This document shows positions 27,342-60,981 of a DNA stretch of 64,000 bases, in pieces. The stretch is from Turritopsis dohrnii. Taxonomy: Eukaryota > Cnidaria > Hydrozoa > Anthoathecata > Oceaniidae. Location: assembly GCA_027922465.2 (NCBI GenBank), contig BQMF02000276.1:541623-605622 (forward strand), in the 5' to 3' direction. The notes under the pieces were generated by a model that saw nothing but the letters and a program-made list of their open reading frames with translations, did no database searches and was not told the origin of the DNA. The translations under genes were made by a program, and so were the position numbers. Each line of letters opens with the position of its first letter. Within the stretch, counting starts at the first letter, position 1.

Positions 27342-28349
27342 TTAACTTTCCAGGTTGGTTCGGATTGTCTTTGAGGAAGCTAAACTTGCATCACTTGAAC
27401 TAGCCTTGCTTCTCCGCATACCGCAAATCAAAGACTTGATCGTATTACGATATGTTTTATTTTTGGACAAGACTATGATCGGATTGATGACGCCTGACGT
27501 ACATGTCAACCAAACACTGGCGGTTCCAACTTGTGATACGATGCAGGTATGTGCAAGTACGCCATATACGACCTCCATCCCGATTACTGGTAGCCACACC
27601 ATATACAAGCAAATGATGATTATAGCAACAGCTCTTGCCAGTTTGAACTCGCCTAGCTTTCCATCTTGCATCCGTCCCAAATTCTTCCTTTCTTTCATAA
27701 CGTATCGCAAAATTTTCATATAAAGAAATGAACATGTACCAAGAGGTATGGCGGTATGAATGGCCAAAAAGGGATAATACCATATAGGCTCAACATTCCA
27801 CACATATGCATTGCCAGGAGCGGGTGTGAAATGAAACGCCATAAACAGAACAACAGACGCGCTATAGATCCATATGAAAGCAATTCTCACATATTCGAAA
27901 GTCCACGTATGCATCGCTTGGTAACTGACTGTCGATACTACAGCTTTGTATCTGTCGTACGTCATAACAGTGACGTGTGCAAACGGCGTGACAAGTGACA
28001 AGCACCAAAACGAATTTTGGAACATTGTACCCAATTCCCCAAAAGACCAAAACGGGTAATGCCAGATGTAATACACCTCCATCCAGGCTAGCGACATAGA
28101 AGTGATGAAGTCGCTAAACGACAAGCTTATCATGTAGGTGTTACCTTTCGTTCTCAAGTGTTTGTTGACAGCATAGGCAACCCAAAGCAAAACATTCTCC
28201 ACAGCAGAGAAAGAAATGGACAGCACAAACAAAGTGACCATGGTGGTACGATAGTAAATGTTTTTAATGCAATCATCCTCATATACTGGTTCTGTTTCAT
28301 TTCCATTTGCAAACGAATCATTGACAAAAACCAAACTTGTATTCAGCAT
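27342..28349 (-). CDS. Intronless rhodopsin-like GPCR, copy 3
   Basis: At 335 residues this is the longest of the three paralogues and probably the reference form. It has the same seven-helix body (YDRY, WLP, NPIIV) and a Ser-rich C-terminal tail (RRSKASSSDASLASSK) that copy 1 has lost by frameshift and copy 2 has replaced. A tail of this kind is a usual target for receptor kinases and arrestin; that is inference. It lies about 21 kb from copy 2 and in the same orientation as copy 1. No conserved TM3 cysteine and no retinal lysine are present. The ligand is unknown. Confidence 0.9.
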   Translation of the reverse strand: MLNTSLVFVNDSFANGNETEPVYEDDCIKNIYYRTTMVTLFVLSISFSAVENVLLWVAYAVNKHLRTKGNTYMISLSFSDFITSMSLAWMEVYYIWHYPFWSFGELGTMFQNSFWCLSLVTPFAHVTVMTYDRYKAVVSTVSYQAMHTWTFEYVRIAFIWIYSASVVLFMAFHFTPAPGNAYVWNVEPIWYYPFLAIHTAIPLGTCSFLYMKILRYVMKERKNLGRMQDGKLGEFKLARAVAIIIICLYMVWLPVIGMEVVYGVLAHTCIVSQVGTASVWLTCTSGVINPIIVLSKNKTYRNTIKSLICGMRRSKASSSDASLASSKTIRTNLES

Positions 28350-33987: not shown

Positions 33988-35499
33988 TCATCTCTTCTCA
34001 AACCGAAAATGGACTTTTTGATCTGGTATAATGATCATTTCATTAATGCTACCGATATTCTCATTAACAGGAAAAATCTTGTAATTCTTAATGAGTTTCG
34101 CAATAAAAACCAGCAACTCATTCTCAGCAATTCTTCGACCAGGGCAGCTCCTCATCCCGTGGCCAAATGGCATGACAGTATATTTCTGGGAGTTGTCCCT
34201 AGCAACAGGACCTCGCTTCTCGTGTGTGCGAATCCATCTCTCAGGTTTAAATTCTTGATGATCACCAAAGTATTTTTTCTTGTTGTAAGAATTTATAATC
34301 ATAGAAACATTAGTACCAGCAGGCACTTCGTATCCAGATAACACAGCGTCAGACTGTAATATGCGAGAATGTCCAACAACTAAAGGATGCAGTCGAAAGG
34401 ATTCTTTCAAAACACCTCGCACATAACTTAGATCCTGAAGAATATCTACCGTGATTGTTTGTTGATCTCCAAGGACAGCTGTTACTTCTTTGTAAATATT
34501 TTCTTGAACGCGAGGGTTCTTGGAAAGTTCAATAACTGTCCACATAGCTGTCTGTGAGATTGTATCGATAGCTGCCCGTAACACATCATTATGCAGGATA
34601 AAATTCTCATCATCTGTTAAGTTAGCATTTCTATCTGTGACATAGTGATCATCAAAACGAGCATATAACACTTTACCATGTTTGACCACTTTGTCCATAA
34701 CATCTTGAAAGTTTCTCCAAACCTTAGTACGAAAGTGACGGTGATGCGGCAAAGAGAATTCAATTTTCACCCAATTTTTAAAAAATTCCAAATGTCCTTC
34801 ATAGAATCCTCGTATGTCCTCATCAATTTCATGGTACGGCTTAAACATACCCAACCGTTGACGAAAAACAACCATTCCTGCATTTTCAAATGTCCAACGA
34901 CTGATATGTTTTTGAAAATCATGGATAATACGAGTATCTTCCTCCAGCAAGGTACGTTCAATATACTCAAAAAACTCATCAGAAATGGCAGAGAATGTTG
35001 GTACCATTTTGAAAATTTCCTTAGGAACAGTAATTGGACGCAAGCTATCTCTAACTCTAGACCAAGTGTCGCCCTGCATGTCAACTATAGATAATGGCAG
35101 GTTGCTTCTTTCATGATAAGCTTTCAATGACCAGATGGGATCCCTTTTCGGTGGTTTACTCCGGGTTTCCTGCTGAAAGACCGTTGAAAAGTCTTCTGGA
35201 TTGGCAGTATGAACTTTATATTCCCCAACGCCAATTTTTTCTCGGTATATCTCACCATATTGCCCGACACGCATGTCAAAGAATTCATGAAGCTTTAAAA
35301 AACTATATTTTCCACGAATGAAACCCAGCATGGTTAACATGGGGCTTGGAACGACTGGGATGTCTGAAAATGGTTTTACATCCTTAGTTTCAGCATTTCT
35401 ATCTACAGTTGCAGTTGCCTCTATGGTTGACTGCCATCGGATATGATAGACAAGTGGGGGAAATCTAAGGCTTTTCTTTAAAGCAGGCCTTAGAAGCAT
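33988..35499 (-). CDS. Mitochondrial-clan cytochrome P450, single exon
   Basis: A complete 503-residue P450. The Arg/Lys/Leu-rich N-terminus (MLLRPALKKSLRFPP) without acidic residues looks like a mitochondrial import signal rather than an ER anchor. Landmarks in order are the helix C WxxxR (TWSRVR, near 147), the helix I AAIDT at 309-313 in place of the common AGxDT, the helix K ExxR at 366-369, PERW at 419-422, and the heme loop FGHGMRSCPGRR with thiolate Cys452. Mitochondrial P450s take electrons from adrenodoxin-type ferredoxin and hydroxylate sterol-like or secosteroid substrates; the substrate here is unknown. The whole frame is open without an intron, unusual for a gene family that is normally split. 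Length and motif order are normal and nothing suggests decay. Confidence 0.95.
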   Translation of the reverse strand: MLLRPALKKSLRFPPLVYHIRWQSTIEATATVDRNAETKDVKPFSDIPVVPSPMLTMLGFIRGKYSFLKLHEFFDMRVGQYGEIYREKIGVGEYKVHTANPEDFSTVFQQETRSKPPKRDPIWSLKAYHERSNLPLSIVDMQGDTWSRVRDSLRPITVPKEIFKMVPTFSAISDEFFEYIERTLLEEDTRIIHDFQKHISRWTFENAGMVVFRQRLGMFKPYHEIDEDIRGFYEGHLEFFKNWVKIEFSLPHHRHFRTKVWRNFQDVMDKVVKHGKVLYARFDDHYVTDRNANLTDDENFILHNDVLRAAIDTISQTAMWTVIELSKNPRVQENIYKEVTAVLGDQQTITVDILQDLSYVRGVLKESFRLHPLVVGHSRILQSDAVLSGYEVPAGTNVSMIINSYNKKKYFGDHQEFKPERWIRTHEKRGPVARDNSQKYTVMPFGHGMRSCPGRRIAENELLVFIAKLIKNYKIFPVNENIGSINEMIIIPDQKVHFRFEKR

Positions 35500-40057: not shown

Positions 40058-41349
40058 TTAAAGGGGAAGTAAACTTTTTTCTTCCATTCAAATCTCCTTG
40101 TCAATCTCAAACAAGAAATGCTGCGCATGTGAACAAATCGCGTTTCCTGCTTGAGAGGGTTACATAAAGTTAGGTCTCTTTTAAAAATGAACATGAAGGA
40201 AGATGCAGCAAACAAAATTCACAAAATACAACACAAAGCGATTTATTCAACACATGTCAGTCAAATTCGGAGATAAGCCGTTGAAAAAGAAAGGGAAGAA
40301 ACCTCTTCGAGGAAGTCCTGGGAACGACTCGCTGTTTAATCAAGTCAAGCGGCCCGGGGAGAGCCCCATGATGAAAAATGTTAGTTTACTGGTTCAGCAC
40401 ATCACAGGCTTATGTAAAATAAACCTAAAGGCTTATAGAATTTTTTTGGAATTTAACGAATACTAAAATTTGATTGGTTCATTTTTCTATCCACATTTCT
40501 ATTCAGAACACAAATAGAAAAAGTAGAACTCATTTCAACTTTTTCTAAAATATCCGAACATTCATGTTTCCTGATTGATAACCGGATTTCCCGAAAAATG
40601 TCGTAGCAAAGTTTGTTGCCTAGACCTTACAGTTCTTGTTGGGATGGTGACATCAGGCATTTATGAGACTTTTCACGGGTTATTAAGGTGATCAGAAAAA
40701 AGAGGTAATTTTTTTGTTCCGATGTCCATGCAAAACAGAATATTTATTCACTTTTCCTACTAACTACATGATGAAAACACCATGATGTTTGTTACATACA
40801 CATCAATCACTCCGTCACTGTTTCTGCCAATATCAGGCTTCATCAGCATGCCTAGGTTTGCATATAGAACCAGACATGGACAGCAACATCACATTGATTT
40901 ACACTTGAACATATATATATAGGCAAAAAGAAATAACATGTCTAAAGCGAATTAAACAAAATTAAAACAATTTCTATACATGTGTTAACTAAAATGATAT
41001 ACCTTTCATGCCTTCATACTGATACAACATTGAAGAAAGTCATTATTGATAAATGAGCTTTTATGGCAGCTCACAACCCCCATCGCACAAATCCTACCAT
41101 GCATTTGAAAAAATGACGACAAACACATTAACATAAGTGATGAAATTCAATTAAAAATGAGTAATGAATAACTTTCTATCCATAGATAAAAGGAAAATAA
41201 GAAAAGCTGAAATTAAAAAAAACAACCCAAAATCGCGAAATTAAGTACCCACAAAAAATGTCCGAAACCAAAAATCGCGAAAGTAAATACCCGCGAAAAG
41301 TACAAATTTTACAATCGCGAAATGAAGTACCCGCGAAATTTAATACCTT
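40058..41349. other. Intergenic with short CGCGAAA repeats
   Basis: TTAAAGGGGAAGTAAAC at 40058 resembles the end of the TTAA element at 61821, but no partner end is found. Three copies of a TCGCGAAA..TAA.TACCC block lie at 41232-41340; related CGCGAAA motifs occur near 56640. No gene is supported. Confidence 0.45.
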
Positions 41350-41353
41350 TAAG
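41344..41353. other. Left attachment boundary of the recombinase array
   Basis: Host sequence TACCTT runs into TAAG, after which unit sequence TTAGCTAACC begins. TAAG recurs at the unit junction and at the right boundary. Confidence 0.65.
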
Positions 41354-41592
41354 TTAGCTAACCATTTCTTGTTCACTGCGCGTCAATTATTAATGACATG
41401 GCTCATGCAGCGAATTAAATCAATTCGAAGAAAATCGAAAGCTTCTTAATGCACAAAATTATTACGGCCGTCAGTTTGATGCAAATAGATGATGAAACAC
41501 TTCTGCCATTTTCGTTTTTTTTCTTAAACTTCTTTTTACTTGGTTCTAACAAAACATTTCCTGCTTACATAGTCAAACCTTAGAATAAAAAA

Positions 41593-44035
41593 TTGCAAAG
41601 TTTCTTCTTACGTAACTCTTACCCTAATTATTGTGCTTCTTACACGTTCTTACAAGTTCTTACTCGTTCTTACCCAGTTACCCTTTGGAATAAAATATTA
41701 CTAAGTTGCTTCTTACGCGCCTCTTACCCAAATGTGTGCGCTTCTTACGCGTTCTTACACGTTCTTACTCGTTCTTACTCAGTTACCCTTTGGAAAAGAA
41801 TTTTGCTGAATTTTTTCTTACGCGCCTCTTACCCAAATTGTTGTGGTTCTTACACGTTCTTACACGTTCTTACTCGTTTCTACCCAGTTACCCTTTGGAA
41901 TAAAATATTACTAAGTTTCTTCTTACGCACCTCTTACCCAAATGTGTGCGCTTCTTACGCGTTCTTACACGTTCTTACTCGTTATTACTCAGTTACCCTT
42001 TGGAATAAAATATTGCTAAGTTGCTTCTTACGCGCCTCTTACCCAAATGTGTGTGCTTCTTACGCGTTCTTACACGTTCTTACTCCTTCTTACTCAGTTA
42101 CCCTTTGGAAGAGAATTTTGCTGAATTTCTTCTTACGCGCCTCTTACCCAAATTGTTGTGTTTCTTACGCTTTCTTACACGTTCTTACTCGTTCTTACTC
42201 AGTTACCCTTTGGAATAAAATATTGCTGAGTTTCTTCTTACTCGTCTCTTACCCAAATTTATGTGCTTCTTACGTGTTCTTACACGTTCTTACTCGTTCT
42301 TACTCAGTAGCACCTTGCAAGAGAATTTTACTAACATTTCCTCTTACTTGCCTCTTACCCAAATATCCGTGGTTCTTACGTGTCCTTACACGTTCTTACT
42401 CGTTCTTACACAGTTACCCTTTGGAATAAAATATTGCTGAGTTTCTTCTTACGCGCCTCTTACCAAAATTTCTGTGGTTCTTACGCTTTCTTACACGTTC
42501 TTACTCGTTCTTACCCAGTTACTCTTTGGAATGAAATATTGCTGAGTTTCTTCTTACGCGCCTCTTACCCAAATGTGTGCGCTTCTTACGCGTTCTTACA
42601 CGTTCTTACTCGTTCTTACTCAGTTACCATTTGGAATAAAATATTGCTAAGTTGCTTCTTACGCGCCTCTTAGCCAAATTGCTGTGGTTCTAGCATGTTC
42701 CTTCCAGGCAACCACTGAGTAAGAACAAGTGAGAACGTGTAAGAATGCGTAAGATCCACAGATATTTGGGTAAAAGGCGCGTAAGAAGGAACCTTGTAAA
42801 ATACTTTTGCAAGGTACCACTGAGTAAGAACGAGTAAGAACGTGTAAGAACACGTAAGAACCAAGGATATTTGGGTAAGAGGCAAGTAAGAAGAAATCTT
42901 AGTAAAATTCCCTTGCAAGGTGTTACTGAGTAAGAACAAGTAAAAACGTGTAAGAACGCGTAAGAAGCACATAAATTTGGGTAAGAGACGAGTAAGAAGA
43001 ATCTTAGTAAAATTCTATTCCAAAGGTAAACTGTGTAAGAACGAGTAAGAACGTGTAAGAGCACGTAAGAAGCATACACATTTGGGTAAGAGGCAAGTAA
43101 GAAGAAAGTCAGCAATATTTTATTCCAAAGGGTAACTGAGTAAAAACGAATAAGAACGTGTAAGAACGCGTAAGAAGCACATAGATTTGGGTAAGACACG
43201 AGCAAGAAGAATTTTAGTAAAATTCTATTCTAAAGGGTAACTGTGTAGGAACGAGTAAGAACGTGTAAGAACACGTAAGAACCACCGATATTTGGGTAAG
43301 AAGCGAGTAAGAAGAAACTCAGCAATATTCTATTTCAAAGGGTAACTGAGTAAGAACGAATAAGAACGTGTAAGAACGCGTAAGAAGCGCACACATTTGG
43401 GTAAGAGGCGCGTAAGAAGCAACTTATCAATATTTTATTCCAAAGGGTAACTGAGTAAGAACGAGTAAAAACGTGTAAGAACGCGTAAGAAGCACATAAA
43501 TTTGGGTAAGAGACGAGTAAGAAGAATTTTAGTAAAATTCTATTCCATAGGTAAACTGTGTAAGAACGAGTAAGAACGTGTAAGAACACGTAAGAACCAC
43601 CGATATTTGGGTAAGAAGCGAGTAAGAAGAAACTCAGCAATATTTTATTTCAAAGGGTAACTGAGTAAGAACGAGTAAGAACGTGTAAGAACGCGTAAGA
43701 AGCGCACACATTTGGGTAAGAGGCGCGTAAGAAGCAACTTATCAATATTTTATTCCAAAGGGTAACTGAGTAAGAACGAGTAAAAACGTGTAAGAACGCG
43801 TAAGAAGCACATAAATTTTGGGTAAGAGACGAGTTAGAAGAATTTTAGTAAAATTCTATTCCAAAGGGTAACCGGGTAAGAACGAGTAAGAACGTGTAAG
43901 AACGCGTAAGAACCACAGCAATTTGAGTAAGAGGCACGTAAGAAGAAACTTAGCAATATTCTGTTTCAAGGAGCAACTGTGTAAGAACGTGTAATAACGT
44001 GTAACAAGAAGTAAGAACCAAGGATATTTGGGTGA
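41593..44035. repeat. Opposed 105-bp satellite arms, unit 1
   Basis: About 11 units run forward (41593-42690) and about 13 run inverted (42706-44035). Each unit holds three CGTTCTTAC(A/T/G) decamers, CAGTTACCCTTTGGAAT and CCTCTTACCCAAAT. Because 105 is a multiple of three, stop-free frames up to 278 codons arise on the outward strand of each arm. These look like repeat artefacts, not proteins. The two arms could pair as a hairpin of more than 1 kb per side. Confidence 0.9.
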
Positions 44036-44048
44036 AAGTTGTGCATGA

Positions 44049-44054
44049 TTTATT
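44049..44054 (-). terminator. Polyadenylation signal of recombinase gene, unit 1
   Basis: AATAAA on the minus strand, 32 bases past the stop codon and just before the satellite arm. The equivalent in unit 2 is at 49095-49100. Confidence 0.5.
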
Positions 44055-44085
44055 TCCTTCAAACGAAATAAAAAATGATCGGTCT

Positions 44086-45942
44086 TTACAAATTTATAGA
44101 AAGGCTCGTGTTGCGTTTAAATGTCAGAGATTCTGTGCGCATCCGAAGTGAGTCTTTATTTCGACAAGGGTGAAACGAGTATTCAGAATCCTTCAGTATA
44201 AGGCTCCAACGACCTTTTCCATATTTGGTAATACCTTTTCTCAAAAACATGTCTTCGTCTTTTGTAAACTTCACTTTCGAAGAAATTTTTGATTTTTCAT
44301 GAACGACTTCTTTTTTTAAATCAACATCGAAACTGATTCGAGATCGGAATTCTGGATCTATTTGTATTTCGGCATTAGAGTTGCTTTCGGGATTACACGA
44401 AATGGTGTTGGTGATTGTTACATCGTCGTCATCGTTCTTGTCGTCAGTATTTTGTGGTGAAGAACTGCTACAAGGCTGCGACAATATTGTTTCGGCTTGA
44501 TCGAGTACTTGCTGATCGAATGTACGCGCCGTGCTGTTGATTGACCTTAAAACATCCATCATGCCTGCACTCACTTCCTTTCGTTTATCGCCAATCAGTT
44601 TCTCCATGCATTGTTTGCTGCGTGAAGCAACGTCTCTTGACAAACTCTTTTGATAAGCTACTTTGGCCACGTGAGAACTGTGCTTTTGGTCACGTGAAAC
44701 AATTTCTCTTTCCGATTGGCTGAGTCTTTCCGCACTTTCAGTCTCTACAATTTGTCGATAGCGAGTCGGATGTATGTATTTGCCAATAGCTTCGTGAACG
44801 AGGACGCTCATGGCTGAAGAGAACGCGGTGTATTGCTTCCCCTTGTTTGTTACGAGCAAATAGTCGCAGTTGGGATTTAGTTTCGGTCGAACTAACTGGA
44901 TATAAAAATCAAGAATTTCCATAGTTTCAGAATCGAGAATCACAGTGTCAAACAAATATCTATCGGCAGTTTTAAATTCCTTCTGATCGATGTAACCTCC
45001 ATTGGTCTTGGCTTTATCAATCATTTCTATGGCTAAGTGTTGATAGGTCATTGGTCTGGAGCACTTAACACGAACAAATAAATACGTAGCAATGAATCTC
45101 GTTGCAAACGCCAGTTGAGATACCGACACGTTTCGTTGGTCTCTGCATTCTTGTAGGATGTCCCGAAAACGATTGATGTGATATGGGATGACGTTTTCCA
45201 TTTCTTCTAAGGTTGCCCAACTGTTTCGAGCAACGAGTGTCTCTAAATCCAGATTGCGAGAATACTCGAGTTTCTTTCTCTTTCCGAGATTTTCTTTACC
45301 ACGTCGTATGTAAACTTCGGTGACCGCAAAACAACGTAAAGTGCTGTCAGATACACCGTTCGCTTTTCGAAAGTCCAGTATGTCTGATATTGATTTTAAG
45401 TAATTCAACGACGCCGAACAACTTAGTTTCCAATCTTCTTCAAGAGTTTTAAGAAAGTCCATAATGATGGAGGGTGTACCTAAGCAACAATCGACGAATT
45501 CTTCGGTTAAACACGATTCGGAATCCAAGTCGTCCACACTAGCCATTAAAAACTTCATACATCGTTGTGCACATTGCTTTGCTTCTTTCTCAGACTTCCC
45601 TCCTCCACATGGTGTACGCAGCCAGTTCAAAAATGTCTTTCCAATACCATCGTTAATAGAAAAGGAAGGCTTGTGTGCCGTACATACTTTCTTTCTGATT
45701 GGCTGTTGTGCTTCTACTTCTTCCCTTTTGATATCTGTAGCTTCGTCAAAATAGTAATACCAAAAATGTTTTACATCGATATGTTTGCGTAAACCTCGAC
45801 TGCTTTTAAAACCAATGTGTAAGCAATTTTGCACAGGGCAGATGTATATATTTCTATCGTTTGGACGTAATACCAACTTTCTTTTATGTTTAGCGGCGCC
45901 ATTGATTCCAACCCAGTTCACAACTAATGTTCTCTTCGACAT
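44086..45942 (-). CDS. Tyrosine recombinase with zinc finger and Myb domain, copy 1
   Basis: An intact 618-residue intronless protein. A C2H2-type finger (C35, C40, H54, H59) is followed by the aromatic run WYYYFDE. An N-terminal core-binding region lies at about 100-230. The catalytic region carries R296 (KCSRPMTY), K324 (candidate), H391-P-T-R394, H421/H424 (QKHSSH) and Y430 (KVAYQK), the R...HxxR...H...Y set of tyrosine recombinases. An acidic Ser/Asp linker (490-515) leads to a Myb/SANT domain at about 555-605 (FTKDEDMFLRKGITKYGKGRW), resembling the telobox class of TRF proteins. It would cut and rejoin DNA at the element's attachment core, with finger and Myb domains supplying sequence recognition; the last point is inference. 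Differences from copy 2 are K224 and H302. Confidence 0.85.
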   Translation of the reverse strand: MSKRTLVVNWVGINGAAKHKRKLVLRPNDRNIYICPVQNCLHIGFKSSRGLRKHIDVKHFWYYYFDEATDIKREEVEAQQPIRKKVCTAHKPSFSINDGIGKTFLNWLRTPCGGGKSEKEAKQCAQRCMKFLMASVDDLDSESCLTEEFVDCCLGTPSIIMDFLKTLEEDWKLSCSASLNYLKSISDILDFRKANGVSDSTLRCFAVTEVYIRRGKENLGKRKKLEYSRNLDLETLVARNSWATLEEMENVIPYHINRFRDILQECRDQRNVSVSQLAFATRFIATYLFVRVKCSRPMTYQHLAIEMIDKAKTNGGYIDQKEFKTADRYLFDTVILDSETMEILDFYIQLVRPKLNPNCDYLLVTNKGKQYTAFSSAMSVLVHEAIGKYIHPTRYRQIVETESAERLSQSEREIVSRDQKHSSHVAKVAYQKSLSRDVASRSKQCMEKLIGDKRKEVSAGMMDVLRSINSTARTFDQQVLDQAETILSQPCSSSSPQNTDDKNDDDDVTITNTISCNPESNSNAEIQIDPEFRSRISFDVDLKKEVVHEKSKISSKVKFTKDEDMFLRKGITKYGKGRWSLILKDSEYSFHPCRNKDSLRMRTESLTFKRNTSLSINL

Positions 45943-46501
45943 TTTTAAAACTTTTTTAATTTATTTAAAAACATTTTTTATTTTATTTAAAAACATTTTT
46001 TATAACTTCAAACATATAACTTTTAACTTAACGATTTACACAAATAAAAAACGAATACTTAGTTCTTTAAACTTGAATGACATATTTATACCGTAGTGCG
46101 TTTCACAGGAGAGTCATTTATTCATTCCTTTTGACAAAGGAACAATGTATTCCTTTTAAGTGGTATACACAAACTGTTCCATTACAAAAAGAATAGTTCG
46201 TGCCTTATGTAGTGAACAATCAAGACTTAATTAAAAGGAAACATTTTGGAGTGCGCGATGGAACAAAACGATCCTGTTAAGGCACTCCATATTGATCTCC
46301 TTAGTAGTGAACAAACTTTTCATTCACAAAAGAACAAGAGTGCACGATTTGTATAACAATGAAACACAGAGAACGTTATAGACTATTAAGGAACAATTAA
46401 GCGTGTCAAACTCTGTTCATTGACAGTTCACTGTCAAAATATTCTCAAGGGTCTTTCAACAAGAGTTTGAATGGGACAAACGACCCGAGTAAAAATTATA
46501 A

Positions 46502-46519
46502 AGCTACAATAAGTTAGCT
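46502..46519. other. Recombined junction site between units
   Basis: AGCTACAATAAGTTAGCT has inverted 5-bp arms (AGCTA/TAGCT) around the 8-bp spacer CAATAAGT, which contains the TAAG shared by all boundaries. This is the arrangement expected of a tyrosine-recombinase core site formed when a circle's ends join. Confidence 0.6.
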
Positions 46520-46752
46520 AACCATTTCTTGTTCACTGCGCGTCAATTATTAATGACATGGCTCATGCAGCGAATTAAATCAATTCGAAGAAAATCGAAA
46601 GCTTCTTAATGCACAAAATTATTACGGCCGTCAGTTTGATGCAAATAGATGATGAAACACTTCTGCCATTTTCGTTTTTTTTCTTAAACTTCTTTTTACT
46701 TGGTTCTAACAAAACATTTCCTGCTTACATAGTCAAACCTTAGAATAAAAAA

Positions 46753-49081
46753 TTGCAAAGTTTCTTCTTACGTAACTCTTACCCTAATTATTGTGCTTCT
46801 TACACGTTCTTACAAGTTCTTACTCGTTCTTACCCAGTTACCCTTTGGAATAAAATATTACTAAGTTGCTTCTTACGCGCCTCTTACCCAAATGTGTGCG
46901 CTTCTTACGCGTTCTTACACGTTCTTACTCGTTCTTACTCAGTTACCCTTTGGAAGAGAATTTTGCTGAATTTCTTCTTACGCGCCTCTTACCCAAATTG
47001 TTGTGGTTCTTACACGTTCTTACACGTTCTTACTCGTTTCTACCCAGTTACCCATTGGAATAAAATATTACTAAGTTTCTTCTTACGCACCTCTTACCCA
47101 AATGTGTGCGCTTCTTACGCGTTCTTACACGTTCTTACTCGTTATTACTCAGTTACCCTTTGGAATAAAATATTGCTAAGTTGCTTCTTACGCGCCTCTT
47201 ACCCAAATGTGTGTGCTTCTTACGCGTTCTTACACGTTCTTACTCCTTCTTACTCAGTTACCCTTTGGAAGAGAATTTTGCTGAAATTCTTCTTACGCGC
47301 CTCTTACCCAAATTGTTGTGTTTCTTACGCTTTCTTACACGTTCTTACTCGTTCTTACTCAGTTACCCTTTGGAATAAAATATTGCTGAGTTTCTTCTTA
47401 CTCGTCTCTTACCCAAATTTATGTGCTTCTTACGTGTTCTTACACGTTCTTACTCGTTCTTACTCAGTAGCACCTTGCAAGAGAATTTTACTAACATTTC
47501 CTCTTACTTGCCTCTTACCCAAATATCCGTGGTTCTTACGTGTCCTTACACGTTCTTACTCGTTCTTACACAGTTACCCTTTGGAATAAAATATTGCTGA
47601 GTTTCTTCTTACGCGCCTCTTACCAAAATTTCTGTGGTTCTTACGCTTTCTTACACGTTCTTACTCGTTCTTACCCAGTTACTCTTTGGAATGAAATATT
47701 GCTGAATTTCTTCTTACGCGCCTCTTACCCAAATGTGTGCGCTTCTTACGCGTTCTTACACGTTCTTACTCGTTCTTACTCAGTTACCATTTGGAATAAA
47801 ATATTGCTAAGTTGCTTCTTACGCGCCTCTTAGCCAAATTGCTGTGGTTCTAGCATGTTCCTTCCAGGCAACCACTGAGTAAGAACAAGTGAGAACGTGT
47901 AAGAATGCGTAAGATCCACAGATATTTGGGTAAAAGGCGCGTAAGAAGGAACCTTGTAAAATACTTTTGCAAGGTACCACTGAGTAAGAACGAGTAAGAA
48001 CGTGTAAGAACACGTAAGAACCAAGGATATTTGGGTAAGAGGCAAGTAAGAAGAAATCTTAGTAAAATTCCCTTGCAAGGTGTTACTGAGTAAGAACAAG
48101 TAAAAACGTGTAAGAACGCGTAAGAAGCACATAAATTTGGGTAAGAAACGAGTAAGAAGAATCTTAGTAAAATTCTATTCCAAAGGTAAACTGTGTAAGA
48201 ACGAGTAAGAACGTGTAAGAGCACGTAAGAAGCATACACATTTGGGTAAGAGGCAAGTAAGAAGAAAGTCAGCAATATTTTATTCCAAAGGATAACTGAG
48301 TAAGAACGAATAAGAACGTGTAAGAACGCGTAAGAAGCACATAGATTTGGGTAAGAAACGAGTAAGAAGAATTTTAGTAAAATTCTATTCCAAAGGGTAA
48401 CTGTGTAAGAACGAGTAAGAACGTGTAAAAACACGTAAGAACCACCGATATTTGGGTAAGAAGCGCGTAAGAAGAAACTCAGCAATATTCTATTTCAAAG
48501 GGTAACTGAGTAAGAACGAGTAAGAACGTGTAAGAACGCGTAAGAAGCGCACACATTTGGGTAAGAGGCGCGTAAGAAGCAACTTATCAATATTTTATTC
48601 CAAAGGGTAACTGAGTAAGAACGAGTAAAAACGTGTAAGAACGCGTAAGAAGCACATAAATTTTGGGTAAGAGACGAGTAAGAAGAATTTTAGTAAAATT
48701 CTATTCCAAAGGTAAACTGTGTAAGAACGTGTAAGAACGCGTAAGAAGCGCACACATTTGGGTAAGAGGCGCGTAAGAAGCAACTTATCAATATTTTATT
48801 CCAAAGGGTAACTGAGTAAGAACGAGTAAAAACGTGTAAGAACGCGTAAGAAGCACATAAATTTTGGGTAAGAGACGAGTTAGAAGAATTTTAGTAAAAT
48901 TCTATTCCAAAGGGTAACCGGGTAAGAACGAGTAAGAACGTGTAAGAACGCGTAAGAACCACAGCAATTTGAGTAAGAGGCACGTAAGAAGAAACTTAGC
49001 AATATTCTGTTTCAAGGAGCAACTGTGTAAGAACGTGTAATAACGTGTAACAAGAAGTAAGAACCAAGGATATTTGGGTGA
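46753..49081. repeat. Opposed 105-bp satellite arms, unit 2
   Basis: Forward arm 46753-47850 (about 11 units) and inverted arm 47866-49081 (about 12 units). It is the same unit as in the first copy, with scattered point differences and a partly deleted unit near 48700-48740. The central turn, around TTCTAGCATGTTCCTTCCAG, is identical in both copies. Confidence 0.9.
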
Positions 49082-49131
49082 AAGTTGTGCATGATTTATT
49101 TCCTTCAAACGAAATAAAAAATGATCGGTCT

Positions 49132-50988
49132 TTACAAATTTATAGAAAGGCTCGTGTTGCGTTTAAATGTCAGAGATTCTGTGCGCATCCGAAGTGAGTC
49201 TTTATTTCGACAAGGGTGAAACGAGTATTCAGAATCCTTCAGTATAAGGCTCCAACGACCTTTTCCATATTTGGTAATACCTTTTCTCAAAAACATGTCT
49301 TCGTCTTTTGTAAACTTCACTTTCGAAGAAATTTTTGATTTTTCATGAACGACTTCTTTTTTTAAATCAACATCGAAACTGATTCGAGATCGGAATTCTG
49401 GATCTATTTGTATTTCGGCATTAGAGTTGCTTTCGGGATTACACGAAATGGTGTTGGTGATTGTTACATCGTCGTCATCGTTCTTGTCGTCAGTATTTTG
49501 TGGTGAAGAACTGCTACAAGGCTGCGACAATATTGTTTCGGCTTGATCGAGTACTTGCTGATCGAATGTACGCGCCGTGCTGTTGATTGACCTTAAAACA
49601 TCCATCATGCCTGCACTCACTTCCTTTCGTTTATCGCCAATCAGTTTCTCCATGCATTGTTTGCTGCGTGAAGCAACGTCTCTTGACAAACTCTTTTGAT
49701 AAGCTACTTTGGCCACGTGAGAACTGTGCTTTTGGTCACGTGAAACAATTTCTCTTTCCGATTGGCTGAGTCTTTCCGCACTTTCCGTCTCTACAATTTG
49801 TCGATAGCGAGTCGGATGTATGTATTTGCCAATAGCTTCGTGAACGAGGACGCTCATGGCTGAAGAGAACGCGGTGTATTGCTTCCCCTTGTTTGTTACG
49901 AGCAAATAGTCGCAGTTGGGATTTAGTTTCGGTCGAACTAACTGGATATAAAAATCAAGAATTTCCATAGTTTCAGAATCGAGAATCACAGTGTCAAACA
50001 AATATCTATCGGCAGTTTTAAATTCCTTCTGATCGATGTAACCTCCATTGGTCTTGGCTTTATCAATCATTTCTATGGCTAAGTATTGATAGGTCATTGG
50101 TCTGGAGCACTTAACACGAACAAATAAATACGTAGCAATGAATCTCGTTGCAAACGCCAGTTGAGATACCGACACGTTTCGTTGGTCTCTGCATTCTTGT
50201 AGGATGTCCCGAAAACGATTGATGTGATATGGGATGACGTTTTCCATTTCTTCTAAGGTTGCCCAACTGTTTCGAGCAACGAGTGTCTCTAAATCCAGAT
50301 TGCGAGAATACTCAAGTCTCTTTCTCTTTCCGAGATTTTCTTTACCACGTCGTATGTAAACTTCGGTGACCGCAAAACAACGTAAAGTGCTGTCAGATAC
50401 ACCGTTCGCTTTTCGAAAGTCCAGTATGTCTGATATTGATTTTAAGTAATTCAACGACGCCGAACAACTTAGTTTCCAATCTTCTTCAAGAGTTTTAAGA
50501 AAGTCCATAATGATGGAGGGTGTACCTAAGCAACAATCGACGAATTCTTCGGTTAAACACGATTCGGAATCCAAGTCGTCCACACTAGCCATTAAAAACT
50601 TCATACATCGTTGTGCACATTGCTTTGCTTCTTTCTCAGACTTCCCTCCTCCACATGGTGTACGCAGCCAGTTCAAAAATGTCTTTCCAATACCATCGTT
50701 AATAGAAAAGGAAGGCTTGTGTGCCGTACATACTTTCTTTCTGATTGGCTGTTGTGCTTCTACTTCTTCCCTTTTGATATCTGTAGCTTCGTCAAAATAG
50801 TAATACCAAAAATGTTTTACATCGATATGTTTGCGTAAACCTCGACTGCTTTTAAAACCAATGTGTAAGCAATTTTGCACAGGGCAGATGTATATATTTC
50901 TATCGTTTGGACGTAATACCAACTTTCTTTTATGTTTAGCGGCGCCATTGATTCCAACCCAGTTCACAACTAATGTTCTCTTCGACAT
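49132..50988 (-). CDS. Tyrosine recombinase with zinc finger and Myb domain, copy 2
   Basis: 618 residues, intact, with the same domain order and catalytic residues as the copy at 44086. Only two amino-acid differences are seen (K224R and H302Y), neither at a catalytic position, although residue 302 lies six residues after R296. Maintenance of two long open frames without a stop suggests recent activity. It has no introns. Its 5' flank (50989-51555) is AT-rich and matches 45943-46509. Confidence 0.85.
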   Translation of the reverse strand: MSKRTLVVNWVGINGAAKHKRKLVLRPNDRNIYICPVQNCLHIGFKSSRGLRKHIDVKHFWYYYFDEATDIKREEVEAQQPIRKKVCTAHKPSFSINDGIGKTFLNWLRTPCGGGKSEKEAKQCAQRCMKFLMASVDDLDSESCLTEEFVDCCLGTPSIIMDFLKTLEEDWKLSCSASLNYLKSISDILDFRKANGVSDSTLRCFAVTEVYIRRGKENLGKRKRLEYSRNLDLETLVARNSWATLEEMENVIPYHINRFRDILQECRDQRNVSVSQLAFATRFIATYLFVRVKCSRPMTYQYLAIEMIDKAKTNGGYIDQKEFKTADRYLFDTVILDSETMEILDFYIQLVRPKLNPNCDYLLVTNKGKQYTAFSSAMSVLVHEAIGKYIHPTRYRQIVETESAERLSQSEREIVSRDQKHSSHVAKVAYQKSLSRDVASRSKQCMEKLIGDKRKEVSAGMMDVLRSINSTARTFDQQVLDQAETILSQPCSSSSPQNTDDKNDDDDVTITNTISCNPESNSNAEIQIDPEFRSRISFDVDLKKEVVHEKSKISSKVKFTKDEDMFLRKGITKYGKGRWSLILKDSEYSFHPCRNKDSLRMRTESLTFKRNTSLSINL

Positions 50989-51555
50989 TTTTAAAACTTT
51001 TTTAATTTATTTAAAAACATTTTTTATTTTATTTAAAAACATTTTTTATAACTTCAAACATATAACTTTTAACTTAACGATTTACACAAATAAAAAACGA
51101 ATACTTAGTTCTTTAAACTTGAATGACATATTTATACCGTAGTGCGTTTCACAGGAGAGTCATTTATTCATTCCTTTTGACAAAGGAACAATGTATTCCT
51201 TTTAAGTGGTATACACAAACTGTTCCATTACAAAAAGAATAGTTCGTGCCTTATGTAGTGAACAATCAAGACTTAATTAAAAGGAAACATTTTGGAGTGC
51301 GCGATGGAACAAAACGATCCTGTTAAGGCACTCCATATTGATCTTCTTAGTAGTGAACAAACTTTTCATTCACAAAAGAACAAGAGTGCACGATTTGTAT
51401 AACAATGAAACACAGAGAACGTTATAGACTATTAAGGAACAATTAAGCGTGTCAAACTCTGTTCATTGACAGTTCACTGTCAAAATATTCTCAAGGGTCT
51501 TTCAACAAGAGTTTGAATGGGACAAACGACCCGAGTAAAAATTATAAAGCTACAA

Positions 51556-51562
51556 TAAGGTA
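51556..51562. other. Right attachment boundary of the recombinase array
   Basis: TAAG continues into host GTA. Joining left host TACCTT with this boundary gives TACCTTTAAGGTA, symmetric about one central base. It is a plausible unoccupied target. Confidence 0.6.
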
Positions 51563-51977
51563 ATTGTTTATATTTTTACTTATTTTATTGAACCAACTTT
51601 TCTTTCTTTGCTTCTTGACGTGTGATAAATGAAAGAGACTTATTGATGACAAGATTTTTTTACTATCTACTGGTGCCTTTTCATGATTTTAATTCTAAGT
51701 ACAGGCACTTGAGCTGGGCTTTCACAGCTTGAAAAAGTAGATTCTTATTTTTGAGTGTCACATTAGGAAATTTATCAACAAAGAGAACACAAAGGTAAAT
51801 AAAATCCACCATCAGCATTAGGTGAAAAAGAAAGCCACTTAAAATTGCTTATCTGATCAATGCGGAAACAGTGGCCATTATGTAAGAATCTATGACTTTT
51901 ACCAGTAATAAAGTGGAAATAGAAGAAATGTAGAAATAACTGGATAATTTCCAAATTTTTCAAATAAGGCTAATTCT
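51563..51977. other. Intergenic, nothing recognised
   Basis: AT-rich spacer between the recombinase array and the 3' end of a LINE. Confidence 0.5.
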
Positions 51978-54651
51978 TCATAATGCTTCTGTCAACAGAG
52001 AACTAGGTTGCTGACCTTCCCCAGGGATTAATTTCTTTCTAAGAGATGCCACAGATCTGCGATGGGAGAGTGTGTCAAGTTTACTTGCAAGTTCATCACC
52101 TACAGCATTACAGATTCTTTTCTGGATACGATCTAAAAGATTTAGAGAATCAGAGGGTGCACCACCCCAGATATGGCAACAATACTCAATACAAGGTCGA
52201 ATAGTAGATTTATAGAGGTAAAGAATGGCATCAGGGCTGAGGTATGCTCTTGCACGAAGAAGGGAGCCCACCTTCATCGAGGCTGACTTAGCGATTGCCT
52301 CAATGTAGGAGCGCCAGGAGAAGTCCTGTGAAAAAATGATGCCGAGGAGACGAAAGGAGTTGTTTTCTTCCAACTGGGTGCCATTCATGGAAATTGACGG
52401 TAAAAAGGGATCTTTAGTATGATTTACAGATAGAAGTTTCGTTTTTGTGGAATTGAATGTGACCAGCCATTTCTCTCCCCACTCAACTATAGATTGCAGA
52501 TCAAACTCAATTTCGCCTGCCATTTCTACCTGGCTGAACAAATCTGATTTTGGAGTACAGGAATAGATGGTTGAATCATCAGCATAGATGGCAAGCTTGG
52601 AAATAATGTCATCAGGCAGATCATTGATGAAAAGAAGAAAAAGGGTTGGCCCAAGGACAGAACCTTGGGGAACACCTGCATTGATGGAATGTGTCGATGA
52701 TGATTGCCCGTCTAAAACAACCTTAAGCCTACGATTACCAAGGAAGGAACAAATCATCTCATAAAAGAGACCCTTAACTCCATATGCAGCAAGCTTTTTC
52801 AAAAGACCAGTATGCCATACTTTATCAAATGCCTTGGATATGTCAAGAGCAACAGCTCTTGCCTCCCCAGATTTATCTAATGCAGTGTAAATTCTATCAG
52901 TTATCACTGTAAGGAGGTCAGCAGTTGAGCGTTGGGAGCGAAAGCCATATTGAGAATCTGAGAAGAGGTTATTAGATTCAAGGTGATTAACAAGAGCATT
53001 ATTGATAAAGGCCTCAAAAATTTTACTCATAACTGGTAGGAGACTAATGGGTCTGTAATTTCGTGGATTAGATCGATCACCATAATTTTTAAAGACTGGA
53101 ATTACAGAGGCAAACTTCCAAGATGAAGGAAAGCAAGATTCGGCTATGCACTTGTTATATAGACGAGAAAGTACAGGAGATAATTCAGGTGCACACTTTT
53201 GAAATAGGATGACAGGAATTCCATCAGGGCCAGTAGCCTTAGAAGCATCAAGATTTGAAATGATGGAAGATATTTTAGCTGGTGTGATAAAGCAGCTATC
53301 CAGTACTTTATTAGTCCTCAAGGGAAATTCCGGAACAGCATGGTCAGAGTCATCAAGAGTAGAGTTAGTACTGAAAATATTAGAGAAGAGTTCAGCTTTA
53401 TCCTTAGATGATGATAAAACCTCTGGACCATTGAAAATGGGAGGAATGGATGACTTTTTATTGTTGGTGACACTTTTAATGATGCGCCAAAAATCTCGAG
53501 AGCCAATTTTTTGTGAAGAGATACGATTACGGGTTTCTTGTTGATATGTAGACTTTGCATTATTAATGACAGATTTGCAGTGATTTCGTGCTTGGTTGAA
53601 AAGAACCTTATTATGAGAAGACTTCTCACGTTGATATTGATGAAAGTGAGCAATTGCTGCAGCACAAGCAGGTGAGAACCAGGGAGAGGAGTGAGGTTTA
53701 ACACGAAATTTTCTACTGGGGATAAATGCTTCAATACCAGATGTAAGCCAAGATGTAACTTCCTCTGCACATTTTTCAGCTGGATTTGAAAACACATTGT
53801 ACCAGGGGACATCGCGAAGAAAGTCTCGAAAATTATCCCATTCACCACGTTCATAACTGAAGAGAGTGCGATGAAAAGGAGATTCAGAAGCAGCTTTGCA
53901 ATTAAGAGATGTTAAGACAGAAACTACGCCATGGTCAGAGTTGCCAAGAGGAGCTTCACTAGATGCTTTACAGATATCAGGATTTGATGTTAAAAAGAGA
54001 TCAAGTAGAGATGGAGATTGATCATCACGATCAGGAAAGCGAGTAGGAAAGTCAATGATTTGGTGAAGAGATTGAGATAGGGCAAAATTTAGAGTATGAA
54101 TTCCTGAGTGAGAGATTCCATTTGAGAATTTGAGCCATTTTTCATGATGAACTGAAGTCACCAAAAACAAATATGTTGGCACTGTGATGAATTGATAGGG
54201 CCTTGTCAATACTTTCAGATATAGAGTCTATAACAGAACAGTCTTGGGATGATGGAGATCGATAAAGAAAGAACAGATAGCTTGTTGAATGGAGCAACGA
54301 AAGACGAAAGCACATGTATGGCAAATCAGGATCCTCCAAATCACTCACACGAGTTATAGGTAAATTGTCTCGAAGGTATACACCAAGGCCATGCATGTGG
54401 GTTTTAGAGTCCTTACGACGTAGAGGAAGATAACCTTGAAAGAGAAGATCATTTTCTGTGTCAATATTGGAATTCAGATTAGTCTCCGAAATTGCAAGGA
54501 TGTCAGGAGAGTTGTTAGAAATGAAAGCATGAATGTGAGAGAAATTTGTACGAAAACCACGGACATTTGTGAAAGATATGTTCAGTGGGGCCGGGTTAAT
54601 CGAATTGGGTTTTGAAGCTGGTTTTTTTGTGTTTTTTCTTTGATTAACCAT
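51978..54651 (-). pseudogene. Non-LTR retrotransposon (endonuclease plus reverse transcriptase)
   Basis: The minus strand encodes an APE-type endonuclease segment (54651-54142: SFTNVRGFRTN, PDILAISETNLN, YMCFRLSL, FVFGDF). One base out of frame near 54150 follows a 743-codon frame (54209-51978) with endonuclease end (LLDLFLTSNPD, GNSDHGVV) and reverse transcriptase: SKATGPDGIP (323-332), NPRNYRPISLLP, DISKAFD (456-462), GVPQGSVLG (512-520) and YADD (542-545). The C-terminus keeps CIEYCCHIWGGAP and then diverges after HRRSVASL, so the 3' end is truncated or replaced. CR1/jockey-like. A single frameshift in otherwise intact domains indicates a fairly young copy. Confidence 0.88.
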
Positions 54652-58416: not shown

Positions 58417-60981
58417 ATGGCTCATCCGGAAGTTAGTCTGAAGCTCCAACCAACCACGACGAACTCCAGATCACTAGATATCACTGGGATTGTAGACTCC
58501 GGGGCCCAATCTGACTTATGGTCCCTGGAAAAGTATATCAGCGCCGGATTCCAGAAGGAAAATCTAACACCAGTATCCATCAGCCTCTTCGCAGCAAACC
58601 GCTCACCAATCAAAATCAGCGGAGCTTTCTCCGCCGTATTGGAAGGTACATCCTCAATGGGAAAGTCAATCAAATGTCGCACATTGGTGTATGTCAGCCC
58701 TGATGTGAAACGCTTCTACATGTCCTACAATACTATGATCGAGTTGGGTATCGTTGACAGCAACTTCCCAGCTGTTGGCACCTTCCCTCCCCCTCCTCAG
58801 CGTACCACTGGTGATTCAGACGGAGCTCCATGTCCACAGACAGTGAATGAGATCTGTGGGGCAATGAAGGACGATGGATCACATTGCGGTTGCCCCCGAC
58901 GCACAAACGTTCCTGGTCGACCAACATTTCTTCCTTTCAACTGCCATCCTGAAAACAACAGCTTGATGAAGGAGTGGCTGCTCAAACGCTATTCTGGGTC
59001 TACATTCAATGTATGCCCTCACCAGGGTTTACCGGAGATGACTGGCCCTCCTGTCGAAATCCATCTCAAGGAGGGCGCCCAGCCTGTCGCTTGTCACAAA
59101 GCAGCATCCATACCACTGCACTGGCAGGATCAGGTACACGATGATCTCAAACGGGATGAGGCTCTCGGGGTTATCGAACGTGTACCATTCGGAGAGCCTG
59201 TTGATTGGTGCCACCGCATGGTCGTGACACGTAAGCCAGATGGTTCACCTCGTCGTATAGTTGACCTTTCCCCCTTGAACAAGCATTGCAAGAGAGAGAC
59301 TCACAATTCTGAATCTCCATTTCATTTGGCAAGACGGGTGCCGCACAACACATGGAAGACTGTAGTAGACGCTTGGAATGGTTTCCATAGCGTTCCGCTG
59401 CGTGAATCAGACAAACACCTCACCACCTTCATCACACCATTTGGTCGTTGGCGTTATCGACGTGCGCCGCAAGGGTACGTTTCATCCGGCGATGGATATA
59501 ACCATCGTTTTGATGCGATATTAGCTGATTTTGAAAGGAAAGAGAGGATCGTTGATGATACCCTTTACCATGACACAGACCTCGAGAAACACTGGTGGCG
59601 CACAATCGATTTGCTGACCATGCTTGGTGAGGCTGGCATCGTCTTAAATCCTTCAAAATTTCAGTTTGCCCAACGCGAGGTTCAATTTGCTGGCTTTCGA
59701 ATCGGAGAGAGAACCATTGACCCACTTCCTAAGTACTTTGATGCCATAAAGAACTTTTCAACCCCGAAATCTGCAACTGATATAAGAAGTTGGTTTGGCT
59801 TAGTAAATCAGGTCACTAACTACGCACAGCTGAGAGACTACATGGCACCGTTCCGTCCTTTCCTCTCTCCACGCTGCCCCTTCACTTGGAATAAGGAACT
59901 CAATGATGCTTTTGAAGAGTCCAAAGTAGCCATTATGGATGCCATCAAGAGTGGAGTGGAAATCTTCGATGTCCACCGACCCACCTGCCTGCGTCCGGAT
60001 TTCTCCAACAAAGGTATCGGATACTTCTTGTTCCAGAAACATTGTCGATGTTTATCTGATGTCCCAGATTGCTGCGCTGATGGCTGGCGAATCTCAATGG
60101 CTGGCTCGCGATTCCTGACACCTACCGAGCAACGTTATGCACCAATTGAAGGTGAGGCATTGGCCCTAGTTTGGGGCCTCGAACAGACAAAATTCTTCAC
60201 GATGGGATGTGACAACCTGACAGTTGTCACCGATCACAAGCCTCTCACCAAGATTTTTGGAGACAGAACCTTGGACGAGATCAGTAACACTCGACTGTTC
60301 AGATTGAAGCAACGTGCTCTGCCCTGGTTTTTCCGCATCACACACTTGCCGGGTAAAACTTATCATGCGGCCGACGCTGCGTCACGTAATCCATCACCAT
60401 CTGCAATACCATCCGACGTAGACATGTCCGAGACGGTCATAGCAGCCGCAATAAGAAGGGACGCTGAATCTGTAACCGCGATCACTTGGGATCTCCTGAA
60501 GAAAGAAACCCAGAGTGATCCTAATTTAACCAGTTTACTCGAGGCGATACGCAGCGGCTTCCCGGACAGATGTCGTCAGTCTCCTGCTATCATCCCGTTC
60601 TGGCAATACCGTCATGGATTGTACGAATCAGATGGCGTCATTTTGCACAGTGATCGCGTCGTCATTCCTACTTCTCTGCGACCAATGGTTCTGAAGTCCC
60701 TTCACTCTGCTCACCAGGGAGTCTCCACTATGTCAAATCGCGCAAGGTCTATTATGTTCTGGCCTGGCATCACTGATGATATCAATTGCACTAGGGCTCG
60801 ATGCCAAGACTGCAATACCAGTGCCCCGCCTCAAGCTGCCCTACCAACTACAGCTACAATTATATTTCTACTACAATTATATTTCATTCTGCTACTACTA
60901 CAATTCATACAATACTACTACATTCATACTACTACAATTATATTTCATTCTGCTTGTATGTTAGATCCAAACATTCAATAA
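58417..60981 (+). CDS. pol: Ty3/Gypsy-type Pol, integrase truncated
   Basis: 854 codons. Aspartic protease DSGA is at 27-30. Reverse transcriptase has RRIVDLSPLN, a TPFGRWRYRRAPQGY box and a catalytic VDD at 379-381 in place of YxDD. RNase H follows (EGEALALVWGLE near 578, VVTDHKPL). The integrase zinc region (HSAHQG near 763, CTRARCQDC near 790) is present, but the DDE core is missing. The frame instead runs through an ACTACTACAATTATATT-type low-complexity stretch into the right 79-bp repeat. The element could encode polymerase but not integrate by itself. No envelope gene is present. Confidence 0.88.
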   Translation: MAHPEVSLKLQPTTTNSRSLDITGIVDSGAQSDLWSLEKYISAGFQKENLTPVSISLFAANRSPIKISGAFSAVLEGTSSMGKSIKCRTLVYVSPDVKRFYMSYNTMIELGIVDSNFPAVGTFPPPPQRTTGDSDGAPCPQTVNEICGAMKDDGSHCGCPRRTNVPGRPTFLPFNCHPENNSLMKEWLLKRYSGSTFNVCPHQGLPEMTGPPVEIHLKEGAQPVACHKAASIPLHWQDQVHDDLKRDEALGVIERVPFGEPVDWCHRMVVTRKPDGSPRRIVDLSPLNKHCKRETHNSESPFHLARRVPHNTWKTVVDAWNGFHSVPLRESDKHLTTFITPFGRWRYRRAPQGYVSSGDGYNHRFDAILADFERKERIVDDTLYHDTDLEKHWWRTIDLLTMLGEAGIVLNPSKFQFAQREVQFAGFRIGERTIDPLPKYFDAIKNFSTPKSATDIRSWFGLVNQVTNYAQLRDYMAPFRPFLSPRCPFTWNKELNDAFEESKVAIMDAIKSGVEIFDVHRPTCLRPDFSNKGIGYFLFQKHCRCLSDVPDCCADGWRISMAGSRFLTPTEQRYAPIEGEALALVWGLEQTKFFTMGCDNLTVVTDHKPLTKIFGDRTLDEISNTRLFRLKQRALPWFFRITHLPGKTYHAADAASRNPSPSAIPSDVDMSETVIAAAIRRDAESVTAITWDLLKKETQSDPNLTSLLEAIRSGFPDRCRQSPAIIPFWQYRHGLYESDGVILHSDRVVIPTSLRPMVLKSLHSAHQGVSTMSNRARSIMFWPGITDDINCTRARCQDCNTSAPPQAALPTTATIIFLLQLYFILLLLQFIQYYYIHTTTIIFHSACMLDPNIQ

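Follow-up and report, generated by a model that had tools for sequence, protein, structure and literature searches.

Tandem units that share a core sequence at all three boundaries

A 64,000-nucleotide stretch of the genome of the hydrozoan Turritopsis dohrnii (C276:541623-605622, where C276 is contig BQMF02000276.1; hereafter the window) carries a head-to-tail pair of mobile units. These units are probably copies of an autonomous, Crypton-like DNA transposon that uses a tyrosine recombinase to form circles and builds mosaic arrays by site-specific accretion. Support for this conclusion comes from the predicted fold and invariant catalytic residues of the encoded recombinase, constant unit ends, precise pairs of empty and filled sites, and mosaic arrays found in genome-wide searches of 891 contigs (435,911,712 bases). 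The features of the tandem pair, in window coordinates, are as follows.

41175–41349 (+), start approximate: left flank, the end of a CGCGAAA-type dispersed repeat with the left half of the target (...CCCGCGAAATTTAATACCTT)
41350–46509 (+): unit 1, 5160 bp
41350–41353 (+): core TAAG at the host/unit 1 junction; a single TAAG is present in the empty site
41350–41582 (+): left end of unit 1 (TAAGTTAGCTAACC...GTTCACTGCGCG), 233 bp, no substitutions relative to unit 2
41583–42691 (+): satellite array of unit 1, 105-bp period, TTCTTAC orientation
42714–44033 (+): inverted satellite array of unit 1, GTAAGAA orientation, 85.6% self reverse-complement match
44086–45942 (−): open reading frame (ORF) of unit 1, 618 amino acids, with C2H2 zinc finger, predicted tyrosine recombinase, and TRF-like Myb domain
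45943–46509 (+): right arm of unit 1, ending in AAAGCTACAA
46510–51555 (+): unit 2, 5046 bp, head-to-tail with unit 1
46510–46513 (+): core TAAG at the unit/unit junction (AGCTACAA-TAAG-TTAGCT, a putative attP sequence)
46743–47851 (+): satellite array of unit 2, TTCTTAC orientation
47874–49079 (+): inverted satellite array of unit 2, with a 115-bp deletion relative to unit 1
49132–50988 (−): ORF of unit 2, 618 amino acids, intact
50989–51555 (+): right arm of unit 2, ending in AAAGCTACAA
51556–51559 (+): core TAAG where unit 2 meets the host; the GTA after it forms the right half of the target
51557–52037 (+): right flank, a dispersed repeat whose paralogous copies contain the empty site

A first-pass annotation of this region had proposed that TAAG is common to all three boundaries, and the core is indeed located at 41350, 46510, and 51556. 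Self-comparison of the window reveals 21 substitutions and two indels (1 bp and 115 bp) between the units, which are approximately 99.6% identical once indels are set aside. The substitutions are located in the satellites (16), the ORF (4), and the right arm (1), with none in the 233-bp left end. The internal junction carries AGCTACAATAAGTTAGCT, and removal of both units leaves TACCTTTAAGGTA. Inverted arms had also been claimed for the internal junction. These arms (AGCTA/TAGCT) are present there, but only CTA/TAG is constant across the 29 tandem junctions described below.

A predicted tyrosine recombinase

The longest ORF of the unit is predicted to encode a tyrosine recombinase of 618 amino acids. 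The best matches to its structure model are XerA, XerD, and Cre, and the predicted structure includes the SAM-like core-binding domain and catalytic domain fold of the tyrosine recombinase superfamily. Enzymes of this type share the catalytic set R...K...(H/K/N)xxR...(H/W)...Y, which is present in the 618-amino-acid protein, and residues R296, K324, R394, H421, and Y430 are unchanged in all 120 aligned sequences. The predicted fold and these invariant residues bear out the original assignment of the unit to the tyrosine recombinases. In addition, the protein has an N-terminal C2H2 zinc finger and a C-terminal TRF1-like Myb domain (residues 555–611), and both may serve to bind the ends of the unit.

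A protein search of the same genome identified at least 71 copies of the ORF (71 of 1005 candidates were scored), 63 of which have no stop codon within the match, and the ORF is under purifying selection. Outside T. dohrnii, a homologue (P0114) is present among hydrozoans such as Clytia. No reverse transcriptase was found in a Pfam scan of this ORF. A DUF3504-type Pfam match is likewise absent for the 618-amino-acid protein at E values up to 1 and among the families listed for 21 members, and no GCR1_C match is listed for the protein or for the members, the C-terminal domain found being of the Myb type. The remaining ORFs of the unit do not exceed 278 amino acids, only the 618-amino-acid ORF having been scanned for domains. 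These smaller ORFs either fall within the satellite arrays or lie antisense to the recombinase ORF and the region upstream of it.

Constant ends and core in copies throughout the genome

The best 30 of the 71 ORF matches were examined with flanks of up to 1.5 kb, and all 30 of these ORF-selected copies carry the right end GCTACAATAA. The 14-mer AAAGCTACAATAAG occurs 119 times in the genome, compared to 12 times for a reversed control. From 100 listed places with this 14-mer, a hand-picked, non-random set of 40 further right ends was read, which brings the total to 70. Another unit's left end (TTAG...) directly follows 29 of these right ends, and host DNA follows the other 41. The 29 tandem junctions include 12 different left-end 22-mers, with a right inverted arm of TAGCT (11 cases), TAGTC (10), or TAGTT (8). 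Conversely, the first 211 bp of the unit left end have 32 genome matches, some of them partial. Among the 30 of these with loci, 16 are host junctions, 13 adjoin the right end of another unit (one being a GCTACTT variant), and one is partial. The core is TAAG in each of the 13 tandem junctions read from this side.

Unit boundaries elsewhere in the genome thus coincide with the ends of the window units. Conservation of TAAG at independent insertions, also anticipated in the first pass, holds for most ends, but AAAG, TGAG, TAAA (on contig C349), or TAAC (the right-hand core on C4) is present at a few. At two places the outer cores are unequal: TAAG/TAAC on C4 (L036, L014) and AAAG/TAAG on C407 (L054, L024), where the ends are 7.1 kb apart, so that more than one unit may lie between them. 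Crossover inside a mismatched core, or mutation, could leave such unequal cores.

Two candidate arm-type sites were also noted. The sequence TAGTGAACAA is present twice in the right arm (window positions 46210–46314), and one-mismatch sites were as numerous in 1 of 200 shuffles; the left end contains TTGTTCACTG (41369–41378). These sequences are at most suggestive of accessory binding sites.

A recurrent target within dispersed repeats

The host target is not a one-off sequence: the site recurs within dispersed CGCGAAA repeats. The sequence CGCGAA or TTCGCG is located within 60 bp of 15 of the 16 host left junctions. For host right junctions the figure is 5 of 40 (Fisher P 1.4e-8), and 6 of 891 background 60-mers of the window contain such a sequence. 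To the right, the host flank after TAA opens with GGTA in 29 of 40 distinct junctions. The pattern CGCGAAANTTNATNCCYTTAAGGTA has 2,545 matches in the genome when up to two mismatches are allowed, with none for the control. Insertion in a fixed orientation could be due to the GTA that follows TAAG, because a mirror-image end would present GGA or a similar sequence.

A search for empty sites elsewhere in the genome, as suggested by the first-pass annotation, yielded precise examples among the paralogues of two loci. The 481-bp right flank of the window tandem has at least 24 other full matches with 94–98% identity (40 of 601 candidates were scored). All eight fetched paralogues of the window locus are empty, and consist of the left flank, one TAAG, and the right flank, which is exactly the host site predicted earlier by deleting both units. 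Their identity to the joined window flanks is 90.9–98.2%, and all gaps, which reach 42 bp in two copies, are more than 10 bp from the junction. For a second locus, carrying a unit on C404, six paralogues were fetched, of which those on C175, C366, C79, and C209 are empty. The joined flanks of C404 match C175 with 99.87% identity over 769 bp, including the junction. The paralogue on C349 is filled by an array with a different left end, and the match on C471 ends short of the junction. Because the left flank of C404 is also repetitive (at least 69 matches listed), its empty sites are regarded as paralogous, without proof of allelism. The precise empty/filled paralogue pairs argue that insertion is exact to the base and that the same kind of site is used repeatedly.

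The 12 empty CGCGAAA repeats that were read have mirror-image ends, with TACCTTAAGG...CCTTAAGGTA in 11 and TACCTTAAAGG...CCTTTAAGGTA, which has an extra A/T, in one. A 149-bp CGCGAAA inverted-repeat element with the ends TACCTTAAGGG...CCCTTAAGGTA is near-identical at four places (L101–L104). No repeat is visible beyond its TACC/GGTA, and duplication of TA or of TTAA are both possible. The repeat ends would fit an ordinary inverted-repeat element that duplicates TA or TTAA on insertion. Given these mirror-image ends, and with no duplicated bases seen outside them, movement of the CGCGAAA repeats by the recombinase of the unit is not supported. We also rejected the possibility that repeat and unit together form a composite mobile piece, since units that are nearly identical are flanked by repeats of different length and sequence, and these repeats also occur empty.

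Mosaic arrays and exchange of the left module

Among the places compared, successive right ends on the same strand are spaced from 4,026 bp upward. Contig C446 carries three right ends in succession that are followed by three different left ends, and C143 carries three that are all followed by the same left end.

Unit 1 contains GTAAGAA motifs with a phase of 10 bp, with counts of 52 and 47 for the two orientations, compared to six in each orientation in the remaining 53.8 kb of the window. This 105-bp GTAAGAA satellite forms the left module of copies L001–L015 (with little in L012). The module is instead a 369-bp GGGCC-rich satellite in L016–L026 and L029, and in L027, L028, and L030 the 1.5 kb next to the ORF are free of tandem repeats. 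The satellite arms that had been regarded as part of the unit are real, but they do not define it, as related copies have another satellite or none. The left module appears to be exchanged between related units, because L001 and L003 are only 7 sites apart in the ORF and right arm, yet differ at 110 of 1359 satellite positions. L008 is chimeric: satellite of the 105-bp type adjoins its ORF and is followed by 429 bp that match the 369-bp-type module. Whatever the left module, Myb residues W579 and 594–602 (RNKDSLRMR) are constant.

The relatedness of the window units was assessed in the satellite using 10 copies less L013, whose anchor string did not turn up. Units 1 and 2 differ at 11 of 1245 aligned bases. 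Unit 1 differs from the C404 copy at 9 of 1359 and from the C271 copy at 10 of 1360, and unit 2 differs from each of these at 9 of 1245. In the satellite, these copies from other contigs are thus at least as close to either window unit as the two units are to each other, and it would fit well if both units had been acquired independently from a common pool. In the ORF and right arm, the window units differ at 5 sites from each other, and at 5 and 4 sites from L006 (on C518). Local amplification or duplication is also possible for this particular pair.

Proposed mechanism and alternatives

In the proposed mechanism, the recombinase would join the TAAG cores at both ends of a unit to create a circle with the junction AGCTACAA-TAAG-TTAGCT. 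This circle would be inserted by crossover inside the TAAG of the recurrent target, which presents a CGCGAAA repeat on the left and TAAGGTA on the right. Because each junction retains the core and one unit-derived half-site, more circles of the same or related families could enter at junctions and generate head-to-tail, often mosaic arrays, with the window representing a two-unit array. The overall process would be conservative site-specific recombination within TAAG, with the circle as donor and with repeated integration at unit junctions. Integration of a circle beside a resident copy had been put forward in the first pass as well. The junctions do look site-specific, but we infer the circular intermediate, its catalysis and strand exchange, the order in which units accrete, and what the zinc finger, the Myb domain, and the candidate arm-type sites do.

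Several observations weigh against this mechanism. Its support comes from assembled sequence and a predicted model, and the 4-bp footprint by itself also fits a 4-bp target-site duplication. The inverted arms at the junction are short, and their constant part comes down to CTA/TAG. Of the 16 host left junctions, two have AAAG and one has TGAG in place of TAAG, and the core also departs from TAAG at 1 of 41 host right ends. The fold of the 618-amino-acid protein rests on a structure model with a mean pLDDT of 68 and a pTM of 0.39; no recombinase was matched in Pfam (E up to 1) or by PDB sequence, and Box II residue 391 is N in 89 and H in 31 of the 120 aligned sequences. Furthermore, the distances to L006 in the ORF and right arm imply that the window units share approximately two changes relative to that copy.

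These shared changes are also what might be seen if a single site-specific insertion had later been amplified by unequal homologous crossing-over or replication slippage, with the junction as a passive by-product. The near identity of the window units (approximately 99.6% outside indels, 21 substitutions) and the recurrence of one left-end 22-mer at 7 of the 29 tandem junctions, including all three on C143, point in the same direction. However, such amplification is unlikely as the general explanation in view of the mosaic arrays, with 12 left-end 22-mers in 29 junctions and three different ones in a row on C446, and of the satellite comparison, in which the window units are not each other's closest. 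The tandem might instead be an assembly error, given that the PacBio assembly is a purged diploid one and that the reported heterozygosity is 1.88 (PMC9835754). An assembly duplication had been named in the first pass as a possible source of the pair. Because the units differ by 21 substitutions and two indels, the tandem is not a copy-paste duplicate, and the genome-wide occurrence of 29 tandem junctions, many joining different left ends, makes an assembly error extremely improbable.

The presence of one TAAG at empty sites and two at filled sites would also result if an unseen DDE-type transposase had generated TAAG as a 4-bp target-site duplication, with the recombinase ORF as a passenger. 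This is highly improbable, as the longest ORF of the unit is a predicted tyrosine recombinase under purifying selection, and the other listed ORFs (at most 278 amino acids) lie in satellites or antisense to the recombinase region. Self-comparison at word size 20, which is blind to short repeats, revealed no inverted repeat at the ends, and the unequal outer cores on C4 and C407 also argue against a duplication, although mutation is possible and C407 may hold two units. A separate proposal is that the satellite arms are the functional core, acting as a binding-site array for the C-terminal TRF-like domain. The TRF1-like character of the Myb domain and the abundance of phased GTAAGAA motifs (52 + 47 in unit 1 versus 6 + 6 in the other 53.8 kb) are in keeping with this role. 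Nevertheless, W579 and residues 594–602 are retained in copies with the 369-bp GGGCC satellite or with no nearby repeat, and this constancy speaks against a specific Myb–satellite pairing. Reading of the satellite by the Myb domain is accordingly not supported, and we consider it improbable that the arms are the functional core of the unit.

Other features of the window

Three ORFs encode rhodopsin-type 7-transmembrane receptors (2515–3465 (−), 5096–6067 (+), and 27342–28349 (−); E 8e-28 to 9.8e-29), and an intact ORF of 503 amino acids at 33988–35499 (−) encodes a cytochrome P450 (E 5.2e-63). Reverse-transcriptase ORFs are located at 51978–54209 (−) and 58417–60981 (+), and the latter also encodes RNase H and integrase zinc-binding domains. 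Positions 52041–52400, at the edge of the first, have 99–100% matches at 14 or more other listed places, which suggests recent spread. A 409-amino-acid ORF at 24297–25526 (+) has a Herpes_teg_N match (E 1.7e-6, above Pfam's cut-off) and contains a 39-bp tandem repeat (24991–25117).

Relationship to known elements

Retrotransposons of the DIRS and Ngaro types use a tyrosine recombinase for integration and also encode reverse transcriptase and RNase H. The T. dohrnii unit shares the recombinase with these elements, but its 618-amino-acid ORF contains neither of the other enzymes. A DIRS-type reading was rejected on the basis of the missing reverse transcriptase in this ORF and the small size of the others (at most 278 amino acids).

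Cryptons encode a tyrosine recombinase alone, have 4–6 bp terminal direct repeats in several groups, and have been proposed to excise as circles and to integrate site-specifically (Kojima and Jurka 2011, PMC3212892). That survey describes the animal groups CryptonA and CryptonI as elements with no terminal repeats and no C-terminal domain. Our unit is similar to Cryptons in that the recombinase is the only enzyme recognised (from the scan of the 618-amino-acid ORF, the others being 278 amino acids or less) and in having precise empty sites and short terminal direct repeats, which presumably serve as the crossover site. It differs from Cryptons, as characterized there, by its N-terminal C2H2 finger, C-terminal TRF-like Myb domain, mosaic arrays, and recurrent dispersed-repeat target. 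Specifically, the Myb domain (555–611) and the TAAG terminal repeats distinguish it from CryptonA and CryptonI, and a C-terminal domain of the Myb type rather than GCR1_C distinguishes it from CryptonF. Compared by description, the unit appears to work like a Crypton and would fall outside the animal Crypton groups as they are presented there. The best reading is that the architecture of the unit is new.

Salmonella genomic island 1 is another integrating element that is also able to integrate in tandem at its attachment site (PMC2297512). It involves a bacterial chromosome and mobilization by conjugation, whereas the host here is an animal genome with thousands of potential targets. Coral CMITE arrays are likewise mobile units in tandem in a cnidarian, but they consist of piggyBac-like TTAA MITEs (miniature inverted-repeat transposable elements) of approximately 100 bp, and the authors who described them favoured replication slippage (PMC2872659). 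A literature search, with subscription papers and Repbase outside its scope, found no element combining a tyrosine recombinase with Myb and zinc-finger domains, no cnidarian tyrosine recombinase arrays, and no satellite-bearing Cryptons. No relatives were confirmed in viral contigs or in bacterial or archaeal genome contigs. The evidence is evenly balanced on whether the Crypton-like unit exemplifies a tyrosine recombinase family that builds mosaic head-to-tail arrays by serial site-specific integration, uses one conserved site within very abundant repeats as a library of landing sites, and swaps entire left (satellite) modules among closely related units.

Crypton-type mobility in animals has mostly been inferred from sequence, and animal Cryptons were found to lack terminal repeats in the survey noted above (PMC3212892). 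In the T. dohrnii element, the ends, core, empty and filled sites, and mosaic arrays are readable and many near-identical copies have open reading frames, such that circle formation, target choice, and accretion are open to direct tests. With short natural target sites numbering in the thousands, an animal recombinase of this kind is also of interest for how tyrosine recombinases choose their sites. Head-to-tail stacking at one exact four-base site is more familiar in bacterial mobile islands than in animals, and these arrays illustrate a route by which a transposon may give rise to long tandem DNA.

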